In this document: in pieces, positions 32,147 through 62,295 of the stretch
Layout: each line of letters begins with the position of its first letter
Position numbering within the stretch: position 1 is the stretch's first letter
Origin: Cochliopodium minus
Taxonomy: Eukaryota > Discosea > Himatismenida > Cochliopodiidae
DNA: 64,000 bases
Assembly (NCBI GenBank): GCA_024220525.1
Contig: JAMYWO010000054.1
Span: 126,711 to 190,710 of the forward strand
Reading direction: 5' to 3'
The notes under the pieces: model-generated
The model's database searches: none
Told to the model about the DNA's origin: nothing
Seen by the model: only the letters and a program-made list of their open reading frames with translations
Position numbers and translations under genes: made by a program

Positions 32147-35100
32147 TTAGTCATCATCAGAATAACCAGAAAGCCAACAAGTAGCATTCTTTACATATCT
32201 CATCGTTCCCGCATTATCAAATCGTTCATATAACTTGGTGAAACCACAGTCAATAACACATCTTCCATAATCAGAGTTTCCTTCAACATACTATTTAAAC
32301 AATTAAATTTTAGTTTCAAAACTCTTAAACATAAAATTTTCATTATTTTTAACAATTCAAAAATTTTTACCATGATGCAAGGATGACCCTCACTTGAAGT
32401 AGCCAAAACTTCTATTGGATAAGGAACAGAAACAGGATGACAAATGGTGATTCCTTTTTAAAAAATTTTCGTAAAAAAAATTTTGTTTTTTGTAAATTTA
32501 ATCTTACCTTCGTAGAAAGACTCTATCCCTACAGTGATGGGATGGTATCTGGTAAAACTACACTTGGAATAAGGATCACTGGATGCTTTCATAATCTTGG
32601 TACAATAATCGTTTCCTGTAAACTGCATCCCGAAAAGTCTTTTTACCTAAGAAAAAAAAAATTTTGTTTATCATTTTTAATTTAAATCCAGTTAATTTAT
32701 TACCAATCTTTGAGTATGACTTGATCCAGACTCAGCATCATTCTCTTCCCACAAGTACAAGCCCTTTCCTAAAAATTGTTTAAATATCTCAAATTTTTTA
32801 ATTTTTTTAAATTATTTTTACCACTCCTGTAAGCCTCCACTACTCTGTCAACAAAGTCCTCATTCTTGGGCTGAACAGTGAAGAAACTGATTACCCAAAT
32901 GACATCGTACTCATTCATGAGCTTCAAAAATTCATCCTCATCTTTGGTGCAATGCCAATCAAATCCCTTTTCTGACAAAGCTTTTCCAGTGTGATCCTTA
33001 AAACCGTCCATGCTAAACAAAAAATAATGAATTTAAAAAAAATTTGTGTTTAAAATATCCTTACTACCATCCCTCTTCCTCATAAAATTTTCCAATCAAC
33101 ACTCTGACTCCCTTAAAAGATTTGTTTGGGGCAAGGTCAAATTTATCACCTATAACAACAAAAAAAATTATTTAATAAAAATAAGAATTTTTTTACCTTT
33201 GGGATTTTTGTGAGGGTCATATTGAATTTTCTTTTTGTCATACATCTTGATGTTCCATGACTGTTTTTTGATTCTCATGTTGAAATACTCAAACTTTCTC
33301 TTCTTCTGTCCAATCTCGTCGAAAATGAGAAAGTTGTCTCCAATGACGTTGAAAGTGGTGGTCACGGGTTTTTTGAGATGCGGTTCCTTGAAGGTAATGA
33401 ATCCACTTGCTTGAAACACGATCAACTTGTCGATCATTTTAGGATCATTGATGGGATATTGACATCTAGGACATTTGATCTGTTGTTGATAGATTTCATC
33501 ATAAAGAGAAACCTTCTCAGATCCCTTTGCAATTAAAGCAGGCTTCTTGTTGAACTCGCAATTTCCATTACCACAATAAACGACATAGTTCAAGCCAGGA
33601 AACATCATGTCAAAGTTTTGAGAAGGGTTTTTAGGGTCGTGGAGCTTGAAGTAGTTGTTTCCAATGAAGTACCACCCAAACTTCTTCAGGATAAAAACAG
33701 CTGATTCATTGATCCCTTTCCTGGAAGGTTTAACGAGCCATTTGTCCAGAACTTCTTCACTGTAATCTATTTCTTGCAAGTACAAAGAAACGCTCTGATA
33801 CTTTTGCATTTTGACCTCCACTTCTACGTTTTGGTAAGTATGTATGGTCTGTCTCATTTCGTACAAAGAACTCAAAGGAAAGACATTTGAAGGAAAGCTC
33901 TTGACGTAGGTGTCATTCGATTTGTCGACACAAGTGAGAGGGAAAGTAGGAACAAGAGCATTTGGGATGTTCATGTTTTGTTCTCTGAATGTATACAAAG
34001 AAGGAAGATCGAAGCTGCAAGAAATACCCACCTCTATCTCCCCATGTTCTGCATTATCCACATGGTACCATCTCACTACTTCTTTAGAGGAGCATCCCGC
34101 AAGTGGAAGACAAACAAATCCCATGAAATCATCTTTGCCGATGATGTCATGGTCGTATATGGAAATACTGATGGAATGTCTTGGGGTTACATCCGTTACT
34201 TTCAGTTTACAAGTTTCATTCCAAACAGGATCGAGTGTCTTCTTCTGAATTTTACTTTTCCAAGTTTGGTCTTGGAAATGTACTTTATATATTGCAGTTT
34301 TAAAGCTTTAAATTAATAAAAAACAATAATTTTTTTTTTACCTAACACATAAGGATCACTTTTTCCATTCTATAATTAAAAAATAAAAAAATTTGAAAGA
34401 ATACTTTTTTTTTTTTTGTTTACACTGTCCATTGAAACCATGTTTTTCCCTTGAATAAACCTCAAAGTAATTGTACCACTTGCTGTTTTCGTTTGTCTAG
34501 TTTCGTAGGTTCTATAACACGGAATGTTGAGGGAGGATATAGGAGTAACTTTGAGACTATTAATAACCAAATTCTTTGAAAATTCATTCAATTTGTTCAT
34601 AAATCCCTTCTTTTTCTCTTTTTTCACTTCTTTCTCTACTTTTTGAGGTACTTCGTTTAACATTTCACCTTGGTTGGGCGGTTTGGATTGGGTTTGTATT
34701 ATCACTATTTGTTGATTTTGAAATTGGCCTTGCTGTTGTGGAGGAAATTGACTTTGTTGTTGTGGAGGAAGCAATCCCTGTTGTGGAGGAAATTGACCTT
34801 GCTGAGGAGGAAATTGTCCTTGTTGTTGTGGAGGTAGCAATCCTTGTTGTGGAGGAAATTGACTTTGTTGGGGTTGTGGAGTGGTTAACACTTGTTGTGG
34901 TGGTTGATTTTGAGGTGGGAATTGACCTTGTTGTGGTTGTGGAGGAAATTGTCCCTGTGGATACTGTCCTTGTTGTGGTGGTTGGTTTTGTTGTGGAAAA
35001 TGACCTTGCTGAGGAGGAAATTGTCCTTGTTGTTGTGGAGGGAACTGAATTTGTTGTGGAGGAAATTGACTTTGTTGGGGTTGTGGAGTGGTTAACACTT

Positions 35101-35935
35101 GTTGTGGTGGTTGATTTTGAGGAGGGAATTGACCTTGTTGTGGTTGTTGTGGAGGAAATTGTCCTTGTGGATACTGTCCTTGTTGTGGTGGTTGATTTTG
35201 AGGGGGTAGTTGTCCTTGTTGAGTTTCTGGTTGTTTAAGAGGCATGCTTTGTGGATTTTGTTTCGGAGGCATCTTTGGAGGCATCTTGGGTGGAATCTTT
35301 GAAGGTGGAGTTTTTTTGGTACCCTCTTGTGAAACTTCTGGTAACTTGAATCCTTGTTTGGGTGGAATTTTTTGAACTAGAGGTGGTCCTTTTTTCACCA
35401 TTTTGTTTGGAGGATTTTTCATTGGTAATTGTTTGATAGGGGGATTGCTTGTATCACCTTGTGATTGTTGAGAAAAATCTTGTTGAGGTGGATATTGTAC
35501 CTGTGGTTGTTGATATCCTTGTGATTGTTGAGAATAATCTTGTTGAAGTGGAAATTGCCCTTGTGGTTGTTGATATCCTTGTGATTGTTGAGAAAAATCT
35601 TGTTGAGGTGGATATTGTACTTGTGGTTGTTGATATCCTTGTGGTTGTTGGGAATAATCCTGTTGAGGTGGATATTGAACTTGTGGTTGTTGATATCCTT
35701 GTGGTTGTTGAGAATAATCCTGTTGAGGTGGATATTGTTGTGGTGGGTATCCTTGTTGATATCCTTGTTGTGGTGGATATTGTTGTGGTGGGTATCCTTG
35801 TTGATATCCCTGTTGTGGATATTGTTGTGGGTATCCTTGTTGATATCCTTGCTGTGGATATTGTGGTTGCTGATATCCTTGAGGGTATTGATAATTTTGT
35901 TGATAGCCTTGCTGATAATTTTGTTGCTGATCCAT
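32147..35935 (-). CDS. PQ-rich / C2 / zinc-ribbon protein with GATase-like C-terminus
   Basis: The N-terminal ~430 residues (34630-35935) are Gln/Pro/Gly/Tyr-rich, in PQQGYQQ and PPQQGQF repeats. A basic helix follows, then a C2 domain split by introns at ~34320-34430: KNMVSMD, then GKSDPYVLG, then KTLDPVWNET, then SIYDHDIIGKDDFMGFV. The acidic loop residues look suited to Ca2+. The next exon (~33196-34265) contains two CxxC pairs about 40 residues apart (YCGNGNCEF and CPRCQYP), a probable zinc ribbon. The final exons (32147-33150) encode a Rossmann-like region. It has RVLIGKFYEEEGW, YDVIWVISF and YLWEENDAESGSSH, reminiscent of class-I glutamine-amidotransferase-like folds, without a proven catalytic triad. 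The protein ends DDD-TAA. It is probably a Ca2+-dependent membrane-binding protein; the PQ tail is like those of some annexins and copines. The C-terminal assignment is tentative. Confidence 0.7.
34738..35930 (-). repeat. Gln/Pro-coding tandem repeat
   Basis: Two repeat families encode the N-terminal tail of the C2 protein. Distal units (35450-35730) are ~60 nt long and encode QGYQQPQ..YPPQQDYSQQP; five near-identical copies are seen. Proximal units (34738-35210) encode QGQFPPQ and a duplicated block of about 200 nt. Repeat lengths are multiples of three. All long frames on the other strand are shadows. Confidence 0.85.
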
Positions 35936-36155: not shown

Positions 36156-38974
36156 TCATATCACTAATTGAGAGATAATGATCATACCATCGTCAATCCT
36201 GATCTTTTTGCAAACTATCAAAGAATGACGAAGATATCCTTCAATGGAAATATCCATAAATTGATCTGAAGAAATGATAGAAGGAATCTTTGAAGACGAA
36301 TTGTTTCTCGAGAAATGATCGACGATAGAGAGATTATCACCAATCAAATGAACAAAGATATAGTCATGATCACAGAGATAGAAGTATAGATTGGTATTTA
36401 ATTCCACTGTGAAAAGAAAGACATCATCATTGAGATTGGGCACAGAACAAAAGGAAGAGATCAACACAGAAAAGGGTTTGGTATTATTCATAGATTTAGA
36501 AGAAACAAGAACATTTTGTAGACTTGAAAGTTCATTCCTCAAAGTGGAAAGATCCCTTCTCAAAACTGTTTTTTCGAGCTTTTTAAAAAAATTAAAACTG
36601 ATATGATAAAAATGTGAACTTAATTCCCAATTAAAAGACATAAACTAACGAAAATAATCTCTAATATTGAACAAATAAAAAAATTTTTTACAAATTGAGA
36701 AGTAACTAATGATAAACATTCATAAATTTGTTTCTTTCCAACAACTATTTTGAAGGTCTTGACAATTTGAAAAGTGAAAAAGGCAGTGTGAGTAAATTTA
36801 TCGAATTTGGGGAGAGTTATTCCGAGCTGTGAAACACTTCTCGAGGAGAATTGATCAATATCAGAAACGAAAAATGTAAACATCAATGGCCTTAGAGAAC
36901 AAACTTGAGGATTAAACAGTTGAATACCGAGTTGCTCCCATTCATTGCTTTGGGTGGATTTTCCACTAACAGAGACTGTCTTGTGCTTGGTGTTGATAAC
37001 TTGGATATCAACACTATGTTTGTTGTTATTTGTTAAATCCACAGTGACAACCGGGGACTTTTTATTGAAAAAGTTTTCAAATTTAATATCCTTTTTAAAA
37101 AAAAATTAAAAAAATTAAAAAAAAAAAAATAAAATTATATTTTTTTTTACGTTATTTTCATTTAATATTTTTGGATCATCATTAACAGAAGATAAAATTC
37201 CTCCCTTTCTAGAATAGATGTGATAAGAACTAATTGAGTATTTGCACCTCACACTTTCCAGCCACTCTTTCGCATCTTCTGCACACTCAAAAGTCATGGC
37301 AGTGGTAGAAAGAGCATCAGAAACAGTACAACTATCGCAAACAATAGAAACAGAAGAAATGGATGTGTCTGTGGATTGCATCAGCTTTGATCTTTTAACA
37401 TCCATTATGTGGTAGTACCCAAACTGGTGATTCTATTTAAAAAATTATTTTTTATTTTTAATGGCTTATTTCTTTTTGTTTTAAAAATAATTAAATGATT
37501 TAATTGTTGAAATTTTTAATATTCTACATTTAATTTTAAAAGTTTATTACTTGAACGTAATCCCCGCTTGTGCACAAAGACAGAGGACAACCATAATCAA
37601 ATGGGAAAACAAGCAAATACGCACTCAAATTGAGCTTCCATTTTAACTTCCAAATTTTGAAAAGGTAAGATAGCGAAGGAGGTTTCAAAATGGAAGTCAC
37701 CCAACTCCTCTTTGGGTGCTTTCCGACACACTTGATGTCCGATCCCCAATCAACATAAATATTATTGAAACCTGCCTTCTTAATGCCATATAAAATTAAA
37801 TCTATAGCCAGTCCTGTCAATTTTTGATATATTGAAACTTTTTTGAATATTTTTTGTATTGTTACCTTTAGCAATCGATCCAAAGTCTATTTTCGAATCT
37901 TTATTTTTTTTGGTCAAAGTAGAACCTTCAGGAGAATACTCATAATCAAAATTTTCTTTCCAACCAACCTGTTAAAATGAAATTAAAACTAAAAAAAAAG
38001 AATATTTTTAACTAATTATAATGTTCAAAATTTTACAAAAGCTTAAAATTTGTTAGTCATAAATTAATATCCGCTAACAAAGTTGTAAATTTTGGAGATG
38101 TCTATTATTATTTTTTACCAATTTAGAAGCAATCTCTATTTCTTTTGAATTTGGTATCCTGTTTTCGTTTATTAAGCAGGATTTCCACAACTGGAAGAGT
38201 GGATAGAAGGATATGTCGTACCTTCCTTGACTCTCATTGTAAATTTCGTTGGATATGTTGAGAAGATAATCTACCATGGGAGGTAAATTTGTGATTTTGG
38301 ATGTGTCCGAGTTTTGATTGATGTTCTTGGAAAGATAGGAGTCTCCATTGAAGGAATTCACATATTTGTTTATTTTTTTGAATACTCTGTCTACAATCGC
38401 TTTTACCACCATTTTATCTTGGGGATGATCACAATTTGATACTAATGTTTTCAAACTATATAGTTATTCAGAACAGAATGTTTCTTAATTTTTAAAGTAT
38501 ATTCTATTGATATCTTTTAGTTAAATTATATTTCATGAGGAAAAATAATTCACATAATTATGAATCATACATTATATCTAATATATAAGATATATTCATA
38601 TATCTCCAATATAGATGTTTGATTTTTTTTATCGTGTTATCCAGAAACATTTATAAAAAGGAAAAATTTATTTCTCCTTATGTCTATCAAATTTAAATTT
38701 GTTTGAACTTTTATAATATACCTAAAACTATATATTTCATAGTCATTGCAATTCCTGTGATCTGATACAAATTATCCTTCTCAGAATTCTTTCCATTTAA
38801 AAATGAATCATTATTGGCTCTCGTGGATAATGGGGGCTTTGATGGAGGGATAGTGATTCCCATCAATTTATAATACTGAATTGCATCTTCTGATAATTCT
38901 TCTTCATCTTCATCTTTGAAATTTTCATCTTTATCATTGCTATTGACAACGGATGCATGAGATACTGAGTCCAT
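36156..38974 (-). CDS. FAD:protein FMN transferase (ApbE-like) with extra C-terminal domain
   Basis: ApbE enzymes attach FMN to a Thr of target flavoproteins using FAD and Mg2+. An acidic N-terminal extension is followed by GIAMTMKYIV. An unusually long intron (38442-38721) containing a MITE-like element is then spliced, and the frame continues LVSNCDHPQD. Further ApbE hallmarks are RYDISFYPLFQLW, KIDFGSIAKGLAID, YVDWGSD, YYHIMD and SDALSTTAMTF (Mg/FAD site). These are spread over exons down to ~37115. A further region of ~290 residues follows (36156-37090), with KSPVVTVDL, LRPLMFTFFVSD and ISIEGYLRHSLIV. It resembles a flavin-reductase-like split barrel, as known fused to ApbE in some protists, but this is only a guess. 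The end at TGA 36156 is provisional. No bacterial Cys lipobox signal is seen, so the protein is probably cytosolic. Confidence 0.75.
38533..38683. mobile_element. MITE-like element (copy 2, diverged)
   Basis: It lies within the 280-nt intron of the ApbE-like gene, in reverse orientation relative to copy 1. The left end TCATGAGGAAAAATAATT mirrors the right end TTATTTCTCCTTATG. Internal matches to copy 1 include AATTCACATAATTATGA, TATATCTCCAATATAGATG and TTTATCGTGTTA. The central palindrome is largely lost. It is non-coding. Confidence 0.65.
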
Positions 38975-39073: not shown

Positions 39074-40046
39074 ATGATATTTTTTAGAATGAGTATTGAC
39101 ATATTTGATTATTTCCCGACAGAGATATTGTTAAAGATTTTTAAACAATTGGACATAAAACAATTATTGATAGCGAGATATGTTAATAGATTTTGGAATA
39201 ATTTTTGCAAATCAGATATACTTTGGAAAATCTATCTGATGAAAGATTTCAAGAGGATTGATAAACAACCCAATAAAGATCACATGTACTATTATTTTGA
39301 ATTGCATAAAACGAGAAATTTAAAATTTGAGCAAGAGATACAGAAAAGGATATTGAAGAGAATAGGGATTTATTTCTTTGGTAGCACTTGCACAGGTAAT
39401 ATCACAAAGTGGAAAAAAATTAAAAACGATATAAAAATTTTATCAATTTAAAGGCAAAACAAGTTTTATTGAACATTATATAATGGGAAGATTTAATTAT
39501 AGATATTTCCCCACATGCGATATTCTAGTGAAAACAGTGGAAACAGAAGTGGATGGTTTGAGTTTGGAATTGGACTTTATAGAAATCCCCGACTTGGTTC
39601 TTGAAGAAGATGAATTCAGTGAAATCCATCAAAGAAATTTTTCTCGATCTGATATCATCATCAATGAAGAACAAAAGAATCTTATTTCTTCCGAAAATAA
39701 CAAAAACTTTTCCTTTGTATTTTTTTTTTCATTATCATCATTTCCATCATTTGAAAGAGCTAAAAAATTGGTAAAGTACATTTCAGTGGAGATGAAAAAT
39801 TATCACCAACCTTTCCTTCTAATCGGAAACAAAAAAGATACAGCGAGTGATTTTTTCTACAAGGTTGATCGTAGTGATTTTGACAAGTTTTGCTTGAAAT
39901 ACAACTGTTTTTACGTAGAAATATCCTCAAAGGATGTTCATCAAATAGGAAATGTTGTGGACAACATTGTGCGTTATATTTCAAAAAAAAATCTTTTTCA
40001 CAACGAAAAGAAACTTAATTGTGTCGAGTGTTGTAAATTATTGTAA
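39074..40046 (+). CDS. F-box / Ras-like GTPase fusion with CaaX-like tail
   Basis: Two exons (39074-39395 and 39454-40046) encode 304 residues. An alternative start is ATG 39089. The first ~45 residues are an F-box: FDYFPTEILLKIFKQLD, then LLIARYVNRFWN, then LWKIYL, which in other proteins binds Skp1 in SCF ubiquitin ligases. After a helical linker a Ras-superfamily G domain begins: IYFFGSTCTGKTSF (P-loop GxxxxGKT, rebuilt exactly across the intron), LLIGNKKD (NKxD) and EISSKD (SAK-like). The G3 DxxG region reads IPDLVLEE and is degenerate, so hydrolysis may be altered. The last residues CCKLL form a CaaX-type prenylation signal. This suggests a membrane-anchored, GTP-regulated substrate receptor. 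It shares a 99-bp divergent spacer with the ApbE-like gene. Domains are seen directly; the role is inferred. Confidence 0.82.
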
Positions 40047-40338: not shown

Positions 40339-41121
40339 CTAATATTTACTTTTGAGAATAAATTTACTGTATTCATTAAAAGGAACAGGAGGATGAGATT
40401 GTAAAGAAATAAAACTGTTATTTGCGACTTGGGTTATCCCTTTGATGAGGAAATCAGTTGATGACATACCTATAATATACAAACCAAGAAACTTAAGTAC
40501 TTGTTCATGAAGCTTACCAACGTGAGAACCCATACGAAAGCCATAGTAAGAATCAGATACATTCCAACCCACAAATCCCTTTAATATTTGCCCAATTTTC
40601 TTGTCTTTTGACTTTGCCCAGCATCTGTCGAGAGATTTTGAGACATCCATGTTTCGGATCATAGATATACTAGTTTGATCAGAATTACTTGCAATTAAAG
40701 TTTCTTCAATCAAATTGTCAGTATATGTGAACTTAAAGGTCCCAGATTCAAGCGAGGAAGCCAATAACAAATTTTCTTGATCTTTCTTGATGAAACTGAA
40801 TCCTTCCAGTTTCAAACATTTTCTCAAACATTCTGTTTGAAAATTTTGAGGGACTATCAATTCGATAAATATTTGTTGAACTTTTGGATAGCATTTTGGT
40901 TCATACAAGTATTGGATTCTGCTGAAATTATTCCATCTTTCATAATTAAATTTCATTTTTATGTTTTCCTCTTTGCTCAATACACATTTGACATCTTTCA
41001 AGATTGAATCTCTTTCCAAATGCACCATGATCCCATCACATTTCAATTCATTCCATCTTATAATTTCCTCTCTTATTCCCTTTGCATCCATATCAAGATA
41101 TTGTGAGAAATTCATCTTCAT
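40339..41121 (-). CDS. Unknown protein, 260 aa
   Basis: A single uninterrupted frame from ATG 41121 to TAG 40339 encodes 260 residues that I do not recognise. It has no signal peptide, membrane helix or clear repeat. It is mildly basic with mixed alpha/beta character. Segments such as WNELKCDGIMVHLERD, GFVGWNVSDSYYGFRMG and GLYIIGMSSTDFLIKG look like a folded globular domain. An in-frame second ATG lies two codons downstream. It sits between the F-box/GTPase gene (convergent) and the methyltransferase gene (same strand). The lack of introns is unusual for its length here. Confidence 0.7.
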   Translation of the reverse strand: MKMNFSQYLDMDAKGIREEIIRWNELKCDGIMVHLERDSILKDVKCVLSKEENIKMKFNYERWNNFSRIQYLYEPKCYPKVQQIFIELIVPQNFQTECLRKCLKLEGFSFIKKDQENLLLASSLESGTFKFTYTDNLIEETLIASNSDQTSISMIRNMDVSKSLDRCWAKSKDKKIGQILKGFVGWNVSDSYYGFRMGSHVGKLHEQVLKFLGLYIIGMSSTDFLIKGITQVANNSFISLQSHPPVPFNEYSKFILKSKY

Positions 41122-41286
41122 TAACCTAAAATCTGTTTATCCTTTGATATTTCATACCAAGACTTATTTACTCTAGAAGCATTGATAAGACAAGATATAC
41201 TATCAATATTGAGGAAAATCAATTTGATATAAATTACACATTTAATAGGAGTTTTTCAAATCATGATAAATAATTTTTATTTTTTG

Positions 41287-42377
41287 TTATTTCTTCCTAC
41301 AAATCAAGATATTTACATCATGAGTCTTTTCATCTTTTTTGACAGTGACGATCTCGTGCTATGAAGATAGGGGTTAGAAAAAACAAACGAGATTTGATCA
41401 AATATGACAATCATTTGAAAGAATATATTAAATGAGATATTATCATTGAGTTGATGAGAGAATTATCATTGATCTTAAAATCTGATATAAATAATTAAAC
41501 AATAATTATTACCTTGATTGTCTCCCATTTATCCTTTATCATCTCAAGAAATTGATCTTCAGTTGCCCTCCTCTCGAAAGACATGATAAATTCAGTGCCG
41601 CTCACACTCAAAAGATCAAAGGATTTCACCAAGATATCATAGATCCTCCCATTATAGATCAATTCGCTTCCCACAATCAATTGATAAGGACCATCCATAT
41701 TATCCACACCCTCTCCCCAACTATAATCCTTGATAGTGGCTTTGATGCTTTGATTAGCGTTGACATTCTTTTTTAATAGATCTAGAGTGTCGAATTTATC
41801 GCTCACGGTGACATCTGCACCCAATACACTCACGCATAATCCCAATAATGCTGTTCCGCTGCCTAATTCGATGGCCTTTTTATTTTTGAAATATTCTTTG
41901 CCTAATTTTTCCAATAAATAGTTTGAAAGAACCTTTGCCTATGAAATTTAATCAACATTTGATTTCAAATAAATATTATACACCTATTATATTAGGCTAA
42001 ATATAATAAAAATAATTTCTCCTTACACTTTCCCAAAGATGTCCTCCAACACCCACTTCATGCAATTCATATTGCTGGATCTTATGCCCATCAAATTCGA
42101 ACATGGTGTGATTATATTCCTTATTATTTTGAATATTAGTATTGTTTCTATTTGCTTTTTCAAACAATTCCTTTTTGAAATCTATCCCTGATAACATCTT
42201 TCCTAATTTCTAAATCAATTTTTTCTTTTTTTTCAATAATTAAAGAATGATGCATACTGTATCAATCAATTTTCTTTGTGCTGTAATTATTTCCTCAATA
42301 TTCTTCAATGAACTCAAATCACTTTCGATTATAATTACTATATTTCTAATGCTTCTTAAAATCTTAGAGTTACCCAT
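41287..42377 (-). CDS. METTL21-like protein methyltransferase
   Basis: Four exons (42258-42377, 42027-42209, 41513-41938, 41287-41358) add up to 801 nt, 266 residues, with agreeing phases. It is a seven-beta-strand SAM-dependent methyltransferase. The residues YELHEVGVGGHLWES precede motif I ELGSGTALLGL, then DVTVSD (acidic residue binding SAM ribose), DYSWGEG, and LIVGSELIY in place of the D-L-I-Y type motif of METTL21/FAM86 enzymes. These usually methylate lysines of chaperones, elongation factors or similar proteins; the substrate here is unknown. An N-terminal helical extension of ~50 residues precedes the catalytic part. It is probably cytosolic. Its divergent neighbour is the first PA-domain receptor. 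Confidence 0.85.
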
Positions 42378-53575: not shown

Positions 53576-56500
53576 ATGCTAAAAGATAATAAGTTTCTCT
53601 TTCTCTTTTCTTTATGCATTATATTACAGATATCATCTCTATTCATCTTTTCCAATGGATTCTTCCCTAAGAAAGAATTATTGGAAGGATTTTCAAATGA
53701 TTCAATAAATTATGGAGAATATTTTGGAAGAAATGATAATCCATTGGGTGGAATAAACAATACATATGCACAATTCAAAAAATATGATAAATTGATAATA
53801 ATGGTGATAGATTCACTGAGGAGCGATCTCACGTATGCAAAGGAGAAATCAAAATTCAATTATCTTCATCGATTGATAAAAAAAAAGAAGGCAGTGCATT
53901 ATACATCAAAGGCATTCACGCCAACAGTGACACTGCCAAGATTGAAGGCGATAATAAGCGGGATGATACCGAGTTTCTCAGATATCCTCAACAATTTCGA
54001 TTCATCGGAGATAAAGGAAGACAATCTGATAACACAAATGAAAAAGGGAGGAAAAAAAATAATATTTTTTGGAGATGATACCTGGATAAAATTATTCCCT
54101 GACAAGAAAAAGATATTTGACAGGAAAGATGGCACAACGAGTTTTTTTGTGTATGATATCTATGAGGTGGATAACAATGTGACGAGACATCTATCTACAG
54201 AGCTCGAATCACAATCAGATTGGGATCTGATGATCTTGCACTACCTGGGGATCGATCATGTGGGCCACTCGTACACCCCGAATCACAGGTTGATGGGAGA
54301 GAAGCAGAGGGAGATGGATGAGGTGATCAAGAGGATCTACGAGAAGAGAGTGAAAGATAATCCTGATACGCTGCTGGTCCTATTGAGTGATCATGGAATG
54401 AGAGATGTAAGGATGTTTTTTTTTTTTTTTATCAGATCATTTCTCAAGTATAATTGAAATCACTTCAAATGATACATTATGCCCGAGAATAACCTAACTT
54501 AATTAGAACGTTGATATTAATATCAACCTTGATATGAAATAACTTCTCTTTTGGAATTTATTTCAAAATTATTCTTGAAAAAAATAAAATTTCATTTTAT
54601 AATTCTTCATTTATTTGTTTGAAAAACAGAACGGTAACCACGGAGGAGCTTCTATTGAAGAAACTTCCTCAGTGATGGTGTTCATTGGCGACCACTTCGA
54701 TGAAAACTCCCCTTCAAGACACCTCGATCAAATAGAAAGCGTTCCTCAAATCAGTTTTGTCTCCACCATATCCTTTCTCATGGGCGTTCCCCTCCCCATC
54801 AACAACTTTGGCTTTGTGATCAGGGAGATGCTGGAGAAGTGCGGATATTCTTTGGAGGACCAAATTTCTATTCTCGCTGCCAATGTCCAACAGATCCTTC
54901 ATTTAGTGAAATCCAATCCTATTTTTTGGAACAAGGGTTTGCCTAGCACTCAAAGAATCTCGTTTTTATTGAACCAGTAAGTTTACAAACTTTTTTAATA
55001 ACTTTTCAAAAATAAAGAATCTGTGAAAGATTATTTTTTAAAAAACAACTTTTGAAAATTGGTCAGTAAAAATGATGATTATATTTATCAACTCCCAAAT
55101 TATTTACATTTTATATCCAAAAAATTTGAAACCAACAAAATATTTTTAACCTAATTTAAAAGTTTCATAGTCTAGAAGATTCAAAAGCAATGCACTACAA
55201 AGTAGTGAAAGGCGAAAGCTCAGAGGGGAGAGAGCTAAGAGAAAGGTACTTCTTCTTCCTGGAAAACATTAGTCAGGAATTCTCCAAAGTACTCAACACA
55301 TACGACATGTACTCTCTAATAGTGGGGATAGTGTTTTTGTTCGTATCTTTCCTTTCGATTTTGTCTTTGTTCATCTTGAACAATTCAAACGCCATTTTTT
55401 TTAAATTTACTTTCAAAATAATGTCAACTCCGCTTCTTTTATCTTTTCTTCTGTTTTTCTTCCACAATTACTTTGCCTGCAACTTTTCGGAGAGTATTTT
55501 GTGCGGTCGTTCTGTGATAACCACGTGGATTTCGTGCCTCCTCCTTTCAATATGTCTTTGTAATTCTTTCTTTGTTTTAGGCGTGTCAAGCAACCCTCTC
55601 CCCCTTCTCCAAAAAATTTCGTTTTCACATCTGATAACTCTTCTTTTACCCTCCATTTCCCTCTTTTCGAGCAGTTTCATCGAGGAAGAGCATTTCTCTG
55701 TTTACTTCATAACCAATACCTTGTTTTTCGTTAATTTGACACAACTTTTTCTTTTTTCTTCTCATCAAAGCAACCAAAATGAAAAAACTAAAAAAGATTT
55801 CGTTTGCAACTTTCTCATTCTCATTTGTGGAAGATTCATCACAAAATGGAATTCCACAGGTGACAAGTGGGCTTCATTGTGGGACTACTCCGATTGGCTA
55901 ACCTCCTCTCACAACCTCCTTTTCCTCCGGGTCTCCATCTTCATTTCTTTCCTTGTTCCCTTCATCCATTTCTTCTTCCTCAAAAAATCACAACATCCAA
56001 AAATCCCACCTCTTGTCCTATTTTCTCTTTGTTTTATTTCTGCTTTTCTTTATAAAATGGAATTTACTTTCCAAAACTTTGATCGAGAAAACTTTGTATA
56101 TTTCGTCTACTTTTCTCTCTTCTTCTTTTTCTCCTTTCAGTACTTTTTTACCAAAAAAGGATCTTTCCCCCTCCTCCCCTATTCACACTTCTCCCTCCTC
56201 CTACTCATGCTCCTCATCCACCGACCTCAAAACTCATTCCTTTTGTTGCTCATGTACATTCAATCCGAATCTTTTCTTCTTCTCGATTGTAATTCAGATC
56301 CCCTTTTGAACCTTTTGTTTTCTTTTTATTTGGGAAGATCTGCCTTTTTTTCTATTGGAAACTCAAATTCTTTCTCTTCGATCGATTTCAACATTTCCTA
56401 TACAGGAACCCAAGGTCTTCCCTCCAATATCCTCGCTATCTTCACTTTTTTCATCGTTTTTAGTTGTCAAATTTTCTTTTTCGTTTCTTTTCTGAGAAAA

Positions 56501-56731
56501 CTTTCAAATGATGGATCTAACAAAATGCCTTTCAAAAACTTTTTTGATCTGATTTGTTTTTTATCTGTTTACAAATCCCTCTTTCTCTTTTTGTTTTCTT
56601 TGGCCATTTACATCCTGAGGGACCATCTTTTTATATGGACTGTGTTTTCACCCAAATACTTCTACTTGCTTGCAGAGTATATTTTACACATTCTAAAGTT
56701 AATTGTCTTAATTGTATTTAATCATGTTTAA
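53576..56731 (+). CDS. PIGG: GPI ethanolamine-phosphate transferase 2 (PIGG/Las21)
   Basis: PIGG adds ethanolamine phosphate to the second mannose of the GPI anchor in the ER. Three exons (53576-54406, 54630-54976, 55171-56731) sum to 2,739 nt, 912 residues, in the family range. A first N-terminal membrane helix precedes the luminal alkaline-phosphatase-like domain. Its metal-binding motifs are MVIDSLRSDLTY (Asp and nucleophile region), FTPTVTLPRLKAIISG, FGDDTWIKLFP, HYLGIDHVGHSYTPNH and LLSDHGMRD/NGNHGGAS across the first intron. The third exon encodes about ten further hydrophobic helices. All expected catalytic residues are visible. GPI synthesis fits the many predicted surface proteins nearby, although those shown use TM anchors. 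It is divergent from the ankyrin gene across 172 bp. The first intron (223 nt) is long and contains an 18-bp perfect palindrome. Confidence 0.93.
54510..54527. repeat. 18-bp perfect palindrome in PIGG intron 1
   Basis: GTTGATATTAATATCAAC reads the same on both strands. It lies in the 223-nt first intron, which is about three times the usual length here. At 54475-54487 the intron also has CATTATGCCCGAG, whose reverse complement occurs at 62818-62830 next to an assembly N. These may be remains of another small inverted-repeat element. Confidence 0.5.
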
Positions 56732-61239: not shown

Positions 61240-62295
61240 ATGATAGCAAATGAAAACAAAACAAAGAAAACTAATGCCAGGAAAGCATGTGTATATTGCC
61301 AAAGAAATCATAAAAAATGTGATAATAAAAGGCCCTGCTTCAATTGCATCAAAAATAAGAGGGAATGTTTTGATGTGGAAAACAAATTCAGAAAAGGAGT
61401 GATTCATCCTCAACATAAAACCAAAAATAATCCTAAAATAAATATCAAGAGCAATATCATTAATGAAAAAGATACTACTAGTGAAGATTTCATTGTTTCT
61501 CACAATCAGAATATTATTAACATTAATAATTTAAATTTCAATTCCAATTTAATTCACAATAATGAAACAAATAAACAAATAATTTCCGATGTAAATCTAA
61601 CATTAGAGACGAATAAGGAAAAAGAGCAGATTAATCTTGAACTGAGAGAAATAAATAATGAAAACATTAGGCTAAAAAGAGAAATTGAATTATTAAAGAA
61701 AAAGAACAAATACAAAAAGTTAAAAAAAGAAAAAACAGATCTATTCTTCCAAAAATTTAAAAAGATTTCTCAAAATAGATATATACCATTCCAATTTCTA
61801 TCTAACTTCACCATGAAAAAAGAGGCAAATTTTACTATTTATAAATTTGATGATAACCTACCTGATACTGGATATCATCCCTATAACATGAAGGTCGTGG
61901 ACGTGTCCAATTCTTGTTCTCTTTTATTTGGTTATGAGCCTCCCAATATAATTAACAAATCTGGAGAATCTTTTAGTCCTACCTTCACAACTAAAGAATT
62001 AGCTGATTACTCTAAAGTAAAAGCAAAAATTTTTGAAGAATTATTTTTTTAAATCCAAAAATTATTTTCTTCTTAGAATTTGTTAGAGTTTTGCAAGGAA
62101 AAAATAAACTATCTCAAAATCATTGCCCTTGTTAAACACGAAATGGGCTTGTTGATTTGTTCCGAAGTTTCTTGTTCTATATTATGTGATGATAATTTGA
62201 AACCTATGTCCATCCTCTTCTTAGTTGAGAAAAGCTATGTTGTTGAAGATCAACTTCAAGAGAATCACAAAATAATTTTCAAGGCAAAATATTAG
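61240..62295 (+). CDS. Zn2Cys6 regulator with PAS-like domain
   Basis: Two exons (61240-62016, 62077-62295) encode 331 residues. The N-terminus has a binuclear zinc cluster with six Cys: KACVYCQRNHKKCDNKRPC, then FNCIKNKREC. It most resembles the fungal ERT1/AcuK-type regulators of carbon metabolism. An Asn-rich region and a coiled coil follow (LRLKREIELLKKKNK-like, ~61620-61740), as dimerising Zn2Cys6 factors have. A C-terminal PAS-like region follows: FTIYKFDDNLPDTG, VVDVSNSCSLLFGYEPP, IIALVKHEMGLLICSEVS. It is a probable nuclear DNA-binding transcription factor; the target is unknown. It ends with TAG. It lies directly downstream of the carbamate kinase fusion, 208 bp away. Confidence 0.8.

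Follow-up and report, generated by a model that had tools for sequence, protein, structure and literature searches.

Within a 64,000-nt stretch of Cochliopodium minus DNA (contig JAMYWO010000054.1; hereafter the window is this whole stretch), one gene appears to join an F-box to a Ras-like GTPase. Is this truly a single protein, does it stand alone in its genome, and what might such a protein do? The gene occupies 39074..40046 on the + strand and encodes 304 residues plus a stop codon after splicing. Exon 1 (39074..39395, +) carries the F-box, a linker, the first G-domain strand and the first half of the P-loop (GSTCTG), all uninterrupted in one frame (..IYFFGSTCTG|K..). It offers two candidate start codons, at 39074 and 39089 (+), and translation may in fact begin at the latter ATG. 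The intron (39396..39453, +; 58 nt, 17% GC) has GT-AG borders (GTAATA...TTAAAG) and lies in phase 1 within the P-loop; reading through it unspliced leads to stops in frame. Exon 2 (39454..40046, +) supplies the remaining P-loop, switch I, a degenerate G3 with a longer switch II loop, NKKD, SSK, the tail and the stop. As the intron splits the P-loop, exon 2 alone cannot make a complete G domain, and because the F-box and the first half of the P-loop are in the same exon, the fusion does not depend on the intron call. Re-splicing reproduced the product length, the intron and the coordinates given in a preliminary description of this sequence, and its claim of a single protein with the F-box ahead of the G domain was supported by Pfam matches to both parts and by the content of exon 1.

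The F-box covers residues 15-52 (PTEILLKIFKQLDIKQLLIARYVNRFWNNFCKSDILWK; 39116..39229, +) and was detected both by Pfam and by a local F-box profile. The Pfam matches were F-box-like PF12937 (4.5e-10, 39.6 bits against a cut-off of 24.3, residues 15-52) and F-box PF00646 (1.3e-8, 34.9 bits against 20.5). When 19 other F-boxes of the same genome were made into a profile, it recovered the window's F-box with an E value of 9.9e-9, and F-box/WD-40 proteins were among the listed phmmer matches in the PDB for the N-terminal part. Only 14 residues precede the domain. AlphaFold, given exon 1 as a single sequence, placed three helices at the position of the F-box with low confidence (mean pLDDT 40.6).

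The G domain matched Pfam Ras PF00071 (1.7e-14, 54.2 bits; cut-off 21.6), with a Roc match below its own cut-off, and NCBIfam small_GTP scored 17.6 bits, under its cut-off of 42.5. The top phmmer matches in the PDB were Di-Ras2, a Di-Ras2/3 chain and Rap2A, followed mostly by other small GTPases. The G1 P-loop GSTCTGKT and the G4 motif NKKD are both present, and alignment with the canonical Ras of the genome indicated that the switch I Thr is kept (PTC for PTI) and that SSK stands at the place of G5. At the place of G3 (39570..39599, +), the alignment sets LDFIEIPDLV against LDILDTAGQ of the canonical Ras. No DxxG with the catalytic Gln was found there, and the counterparts of Asp57, Gly60 and Gln61 are absent. 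A longer loop replaces switch II, visible as 19 consecutive gap columns in the other three sequences before the next strand, and 4 to 6 further gap columns lie near G3. Thus, of the motifs claimed in the preliminary description, the exact P-loop, NKxD and CKLL end can be read directly in the sequence, and the degenerate G3 proved in the alignment to be a real loss. The window's G domain is 0.19-0.21 identical to the other three in the alignment. AlphaFold, given exon 2 as a single sequence, returned helices alternating with strands, the pattern of a Ras fold, at a mean pLDDT of 52.6, which is no proof of the fold. Because G3 lacks DxxG with the catalytic Gln, the protein would be at most an atypical member of the Ras superfamily. 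RGK and Rnd-type GTPases have altered G3 or hydrolysis motifs, no F-box and different tails; the RGK proteins GEM, RAD and REM1 were among the PDB matches listed for the window's protein.

The protein ends in CKLL (40032..40043, +), a CaaL-type end with more Cys directly before it (NCVEC), and the canonical Ras of the genome ends in CSLL; this Ras had 5wdr (a Ras protein) as its best match, followed by KRas entries. The suggestion of a prenylatable end stands as a prediction, CKLL fitting the CaaX pattern. Among 185 ORFs that reach 100 aa in sampled DNA of the genome, a set enriched in GTPases, 16 have a Cys at position -4, so that CKLL alone is weak evidence. The tails of the related genes described below probably make the case for a prenylation signal stronger than the single CKLL does.

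To place the gene in its genome, we examined 44,654,751 bases in 598 contigs. Two profile searches, in which the best candidates were scored, gave at least 150 and at least 149 F-box matches. Listed Ras matches were compared with listed F-box matches and neighbouring pairs were inspected, in a census that is partial; the labels Ras-, Rac- and Rab-like rest on motifs judged by eye and not on phylogeny. An F-box followed by a small GTPase on the same strand was found at ten further loci, one of them only probable, a recurrence that the preliminary description had missed. One of the ten is Ras-like, seven are Rac/Rho-like (five of them in tandem) and two are Rab-like, which makes 11 loci with the window's gene, again counting the probable one (1 + 1 + 5 + 1 + 1 + 2). 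The set is established as an order of exons, with splicing modelled for three. These further fusions rule out that the window's gene is a one-off oddity.

At the Ras-like locus (C384), a single GT-AG solution joins the exons into the P-loop GSEGVGKS; G3 reads DSTE and the protein ends in CLLM. In the tandem locus (C11), Rac-like exons come after each of five F-box exons, and the ends are CNLF, CIFF, CTLF, CFLF and CILF. Two of these five genes could be spliced from the F-box to the tail, each along an open GT-AG path that is unique at three of seven steps, and they carry the P-loops GDGGVGKT and GDQGVGKT together with LWDTAGQ and GTKTD; for the remaining three, only the individual exons were read. 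A second sample took best-scoring remaining F-box matches with their surroundings, 40 regions of which two overlap, and three of the 40 held F-box and then GTPase exons on the same strand. The first of these (C224) is Rac-like and ends in CVIF, and two of the eight steps of its model had no GT-AG solution with the anchors chosen. The second (C23) is divergent and Rho-like, with the end CLIF, and is graded only a probable fusion because both of its GTPase pieces (16.9 and 19.3) fall below the Pfam cut-off of 21.6. The third (C114:73300-78300) contains two Rab-like copies and a third that is a fragment only: copy 1 has a changed P-loop (GDRNVGGT), copy 2 an intact one, and copy 3 consists of an F-box and a G3 remnant. 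Judged by eye, the tails of copies 1 and 2 are hydrophobic instead of CaaX. One region (L069) was excluded from the count, with its GTPase exons on the opposite strand from the F-box.

All nine Ras/Rac-like tails, those of the window's gene and of the probable C23 included, end in C-x-x-x. Pfam F-box was above its cut-off in 10/10 F-box exons tested besides the window's own, and Pfam Ras in 8/10 GTPase pieces, both misses being those of C23; the GTPase piece of C114 copy 1 was identified by the local profile only (1.1e-8). A phase 1 intron interrupts the P-loop in four of the genes, at the last P-loop Gly codon in the window's gene, one codon earlier in the two modelled C11 genes and four codons earlier in C384. 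A shared origin does not follow from this, because two GTPase genes with no F-box found ahead of them (C9 and C307) seem alike in having an exon that also appears to start near GKT. In a tblastn search of the genome, the next match after the gene's own locus had an E value of 3.5e-4 and 27% identity, so no homologue was near enough for a selection test. Two of the five F-box-side matches outside the own locus lay in C11, at E values of 0.0065 and 0.029, and give weak evidence for a possible kinship between the window's F-box and the C11 exons. One scan of viral contigs gave 10 pattern matches, none of them a relative. Taken at the level of sequence, the window's gene seems to be no freak but part of a home-grown F-box–GTPase family.

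The preliminary description knew of no standard protein with this order, and here the literature corrects it. The report on TbFRP describes one protein with a FYVE domain, a central F-box and a C-terminal GTPase (PMC3593210). TbFRP is reported from Euglenozoa only, Naegleria gruberi having shown no orthologue; it ends in VLLD without a CaaX, and its GTPase is reported to be closest to TbRab18 and yeast Ypt6 (PMC3593210). TbFRP and the window's protein are both protist proteins in which an F-box precedes a G domain of the Ras superfamily, whereas the window's protein is without a FYVE domain (Pfam up to E 10) and ends in CKLL. A second paper states that some ARF family proteins carry an F-box or BTB domain, generally in a lineage-specific manner (PMC8358228); these likewise join a small GTPase to a cullin-ligase adaptor domain, but the GTPase described there is of the ARF family and that of the window's gene is Ras-like. 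In a Naegleria fowleri paper, the reference block of the small-GTPase supplement includes reviews of F-box, BTB and RhoBTB proteins, which hints that F-box/BTB–GTPase fusions were seen in Naegleria (PMC8296547). The F-box–GTPase fusion is thus already known as a kind (PMC3593210, PMC8358228). In the open-licence PMC papers searched, neither an F-box–Ras protein ending in CaaX nor a mixed Ras-, Rac- and Rab-like F-box set in one genome was found.

RhoBTB proteins, in which the GTPase comes first and BTB follows, are cullin adaptors for Cul3. They resemble the window's protein in uniting a GTPase and a cullin adaptor and can serve as a working model, with Cul3 instead of Cul1; they differ in that the window's protein has no BTB (Pfam up to E 10) and its F-box precedes the GTPase.

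The genes that such a protein would work with are present in the genome. We found six exon-level matches to Skp1, 29 to cullin on eight contigs, and seven each to the alpha and beta subunits of prenyltransferase, those to beta confined to two contigs. The natural reading of the window's gene would be an SCF adaptor at a membrane. F-box proteins act outside SCF as well. Our best explanation is that the F-box–GTPase is a membrane-held SCF substrate receptor with its G domain as a non-switching docking module, a proposal that we regard as evenly poised between right and wrong. It is supported by the domains and the open frame, by the single exon that holds both the F-box and the beginning of the P-loop, by the retention of the P-loop and NKKD together with the loss of G3, and further by the other fusions, the C-x-x-x tails, the SCF and prenylation genes and the stop-free frame. 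In this scheme, the F-box, by binding Skp1, would make the protein part of a cullin-1-type SCF ligase; a prenyl group, perhaps aided by the neighbouring Cys, would anchor the complex to a membrane; a constitutive docking surface would be formed by the G domain, which would fold around a nucleotide but have no working G3; and a docked, membrane-linked partner would be presented for ubiquitination. For the window's protein we infer Skp1 binding, membrane attachment, nucleotide binding and the docking role from its motifs. If the scheme is true, it would describe an SCF counterpart of RhoBTB–Cul3, a receptor with its own GTPase and membrane anchor, and ubiquitination could be tied to sites of Ras or Rac signalling.

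The chief rival to the docking module is a built-in degron: the F-box would recruit SCF in cis and so impose fast turnover on a GTPase-defective, membrane-bound Ras. We consider this rather unlikely. The TbFRP report suggests that the F-box may be coupled to the rapid proteolysis of that protein (PMC3593210), and a GTPase without G3, as judged from the alignment, would need another off-switch. Yet the two modelled Rac-like fusions have canonical G motifs, so that a substitute off-switch should be needless for them. The degron and the substrate receptor are separable in this genome, because some fusions keep G3 and some lose it.

Returning to the docking module, its non-switching character bears on the proposal of the preliminary description that the ligase is gated by nucleotide. 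In its full form, the G domain would be a true switch, with one choice of substrates in the GTP form and another in the GDP form. The exact P-loop, the switch I Thr (PTC) and NKKD of the window's gene, as well as the complete P-loop, LWDTAGQ and TKTD of the two modelled Rac-like fusions, speak for it; nevertheless, with the equivalents of Asp57, Gly60 and Gln61 gone, the 19-column insertion and the 4 to 6 columns near G3, the gamma-phosphate should not be sensed in the usual way, and we judge a true switch in the window's protein to be distinctly unlikely. For this copy the gating claim is not supported, the three residues being missing, and the preliminary description itself had conceded that the protein might be locked in one state; gating by nucleotide would fit the Rac-like cousins better, whose canonical G motifs mark them as possible true switches. 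A broader and rather doubtful extension is that this lineage built a class of SCF ligases with small-GTPase substrate receptors, in which Ras-, Rac- and Rab-like G domains were joined to F-boxes, lipid or transmembrane anchors were kept, the GTPase module would place the ligases and, in the Rac-like members, also switch them, and the switch of the window's gene was later fixed.

Decay of a functionless fusion gene is improbable in our view. In its favour are how far the G domain has diverged (19-21% identity to the other three aligned), the poor codon-usage score, and the third C114 copy, whose reduction to a fragment indicates that decay does occur within the set. However, the F-box, P-loop, NKKD, CaaX and splice sites are intact, and neutral drift should have brought stops: in simulation, stop-free copies numbered 4/300 at 10% replacement and 0/300 at 20%. 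The chance of 304 stop-free codons at the window's base composition is about 9e-12, and survival of the frame without selection is improbable. With nine long ORFs of the window as its training set, the codon-usage score was -0.22 per codon for exon 1, the lowest of six readings, and -0.05 for exon 2, the highest of six by a hair; given how much K/N/I/F the protein contains, we read the score as uninformative to slightly adverse, not as support. Weakest of all, and ruled out here as a minimal chance, is a wrong joining of two neighbouring genes, for the model must assume an intron to avoid the stops on read-through, but a GTPase part without exon 1 would have no P-loop, strand 1 and half of the P-loop sit with the F-box in that exon, and the F-box-then-GTPase order repeats elsewhere in the genome.

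Several other features were seen at the locus and in the wider sequence. The tail-to-tail neighbour (40339-41255, -) contains a 260-aa ORF with no Pfam match, and the segment preceding this ORF (41124-41255, -) resembles part of an F-box (local profile E 8.3e-5); this neighbour is possibly a second F-box gene. Upstream of the fusion gene and divergent from it lies an ApbE-family exon (38074-38454, -; Pfam 9.4e-13), here in a eukaryotic genome. Elsewhere in the window are a Methyltransf_16 (lysine methyltransferase) match (41495-41914, -; 3.9e-22), a membrane region of PIGO/PIGG GPI ethanolamine phosphate transferase (55190-56731, +; 2.2e-30) and a Zn(2)-Cys(6) cluster domain (61240-62052, +; 2e-6), a domain named after fungi. 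A 519-aa ORF (34376-35935, -) with no Pfam match starts with Q/G/Y/P repeats (MDQQQNYQQGYQQ...) and has a low-complexity, prion-like composition. A piece of the adenosylhomocysteinase encoded in the genome had 5v96 and 6uk3, both amoeba proteins, as its best matches. Outside the window, a Ras-profile match (C1:633782-634150, -) lies within an open frame of 14,711 aa.
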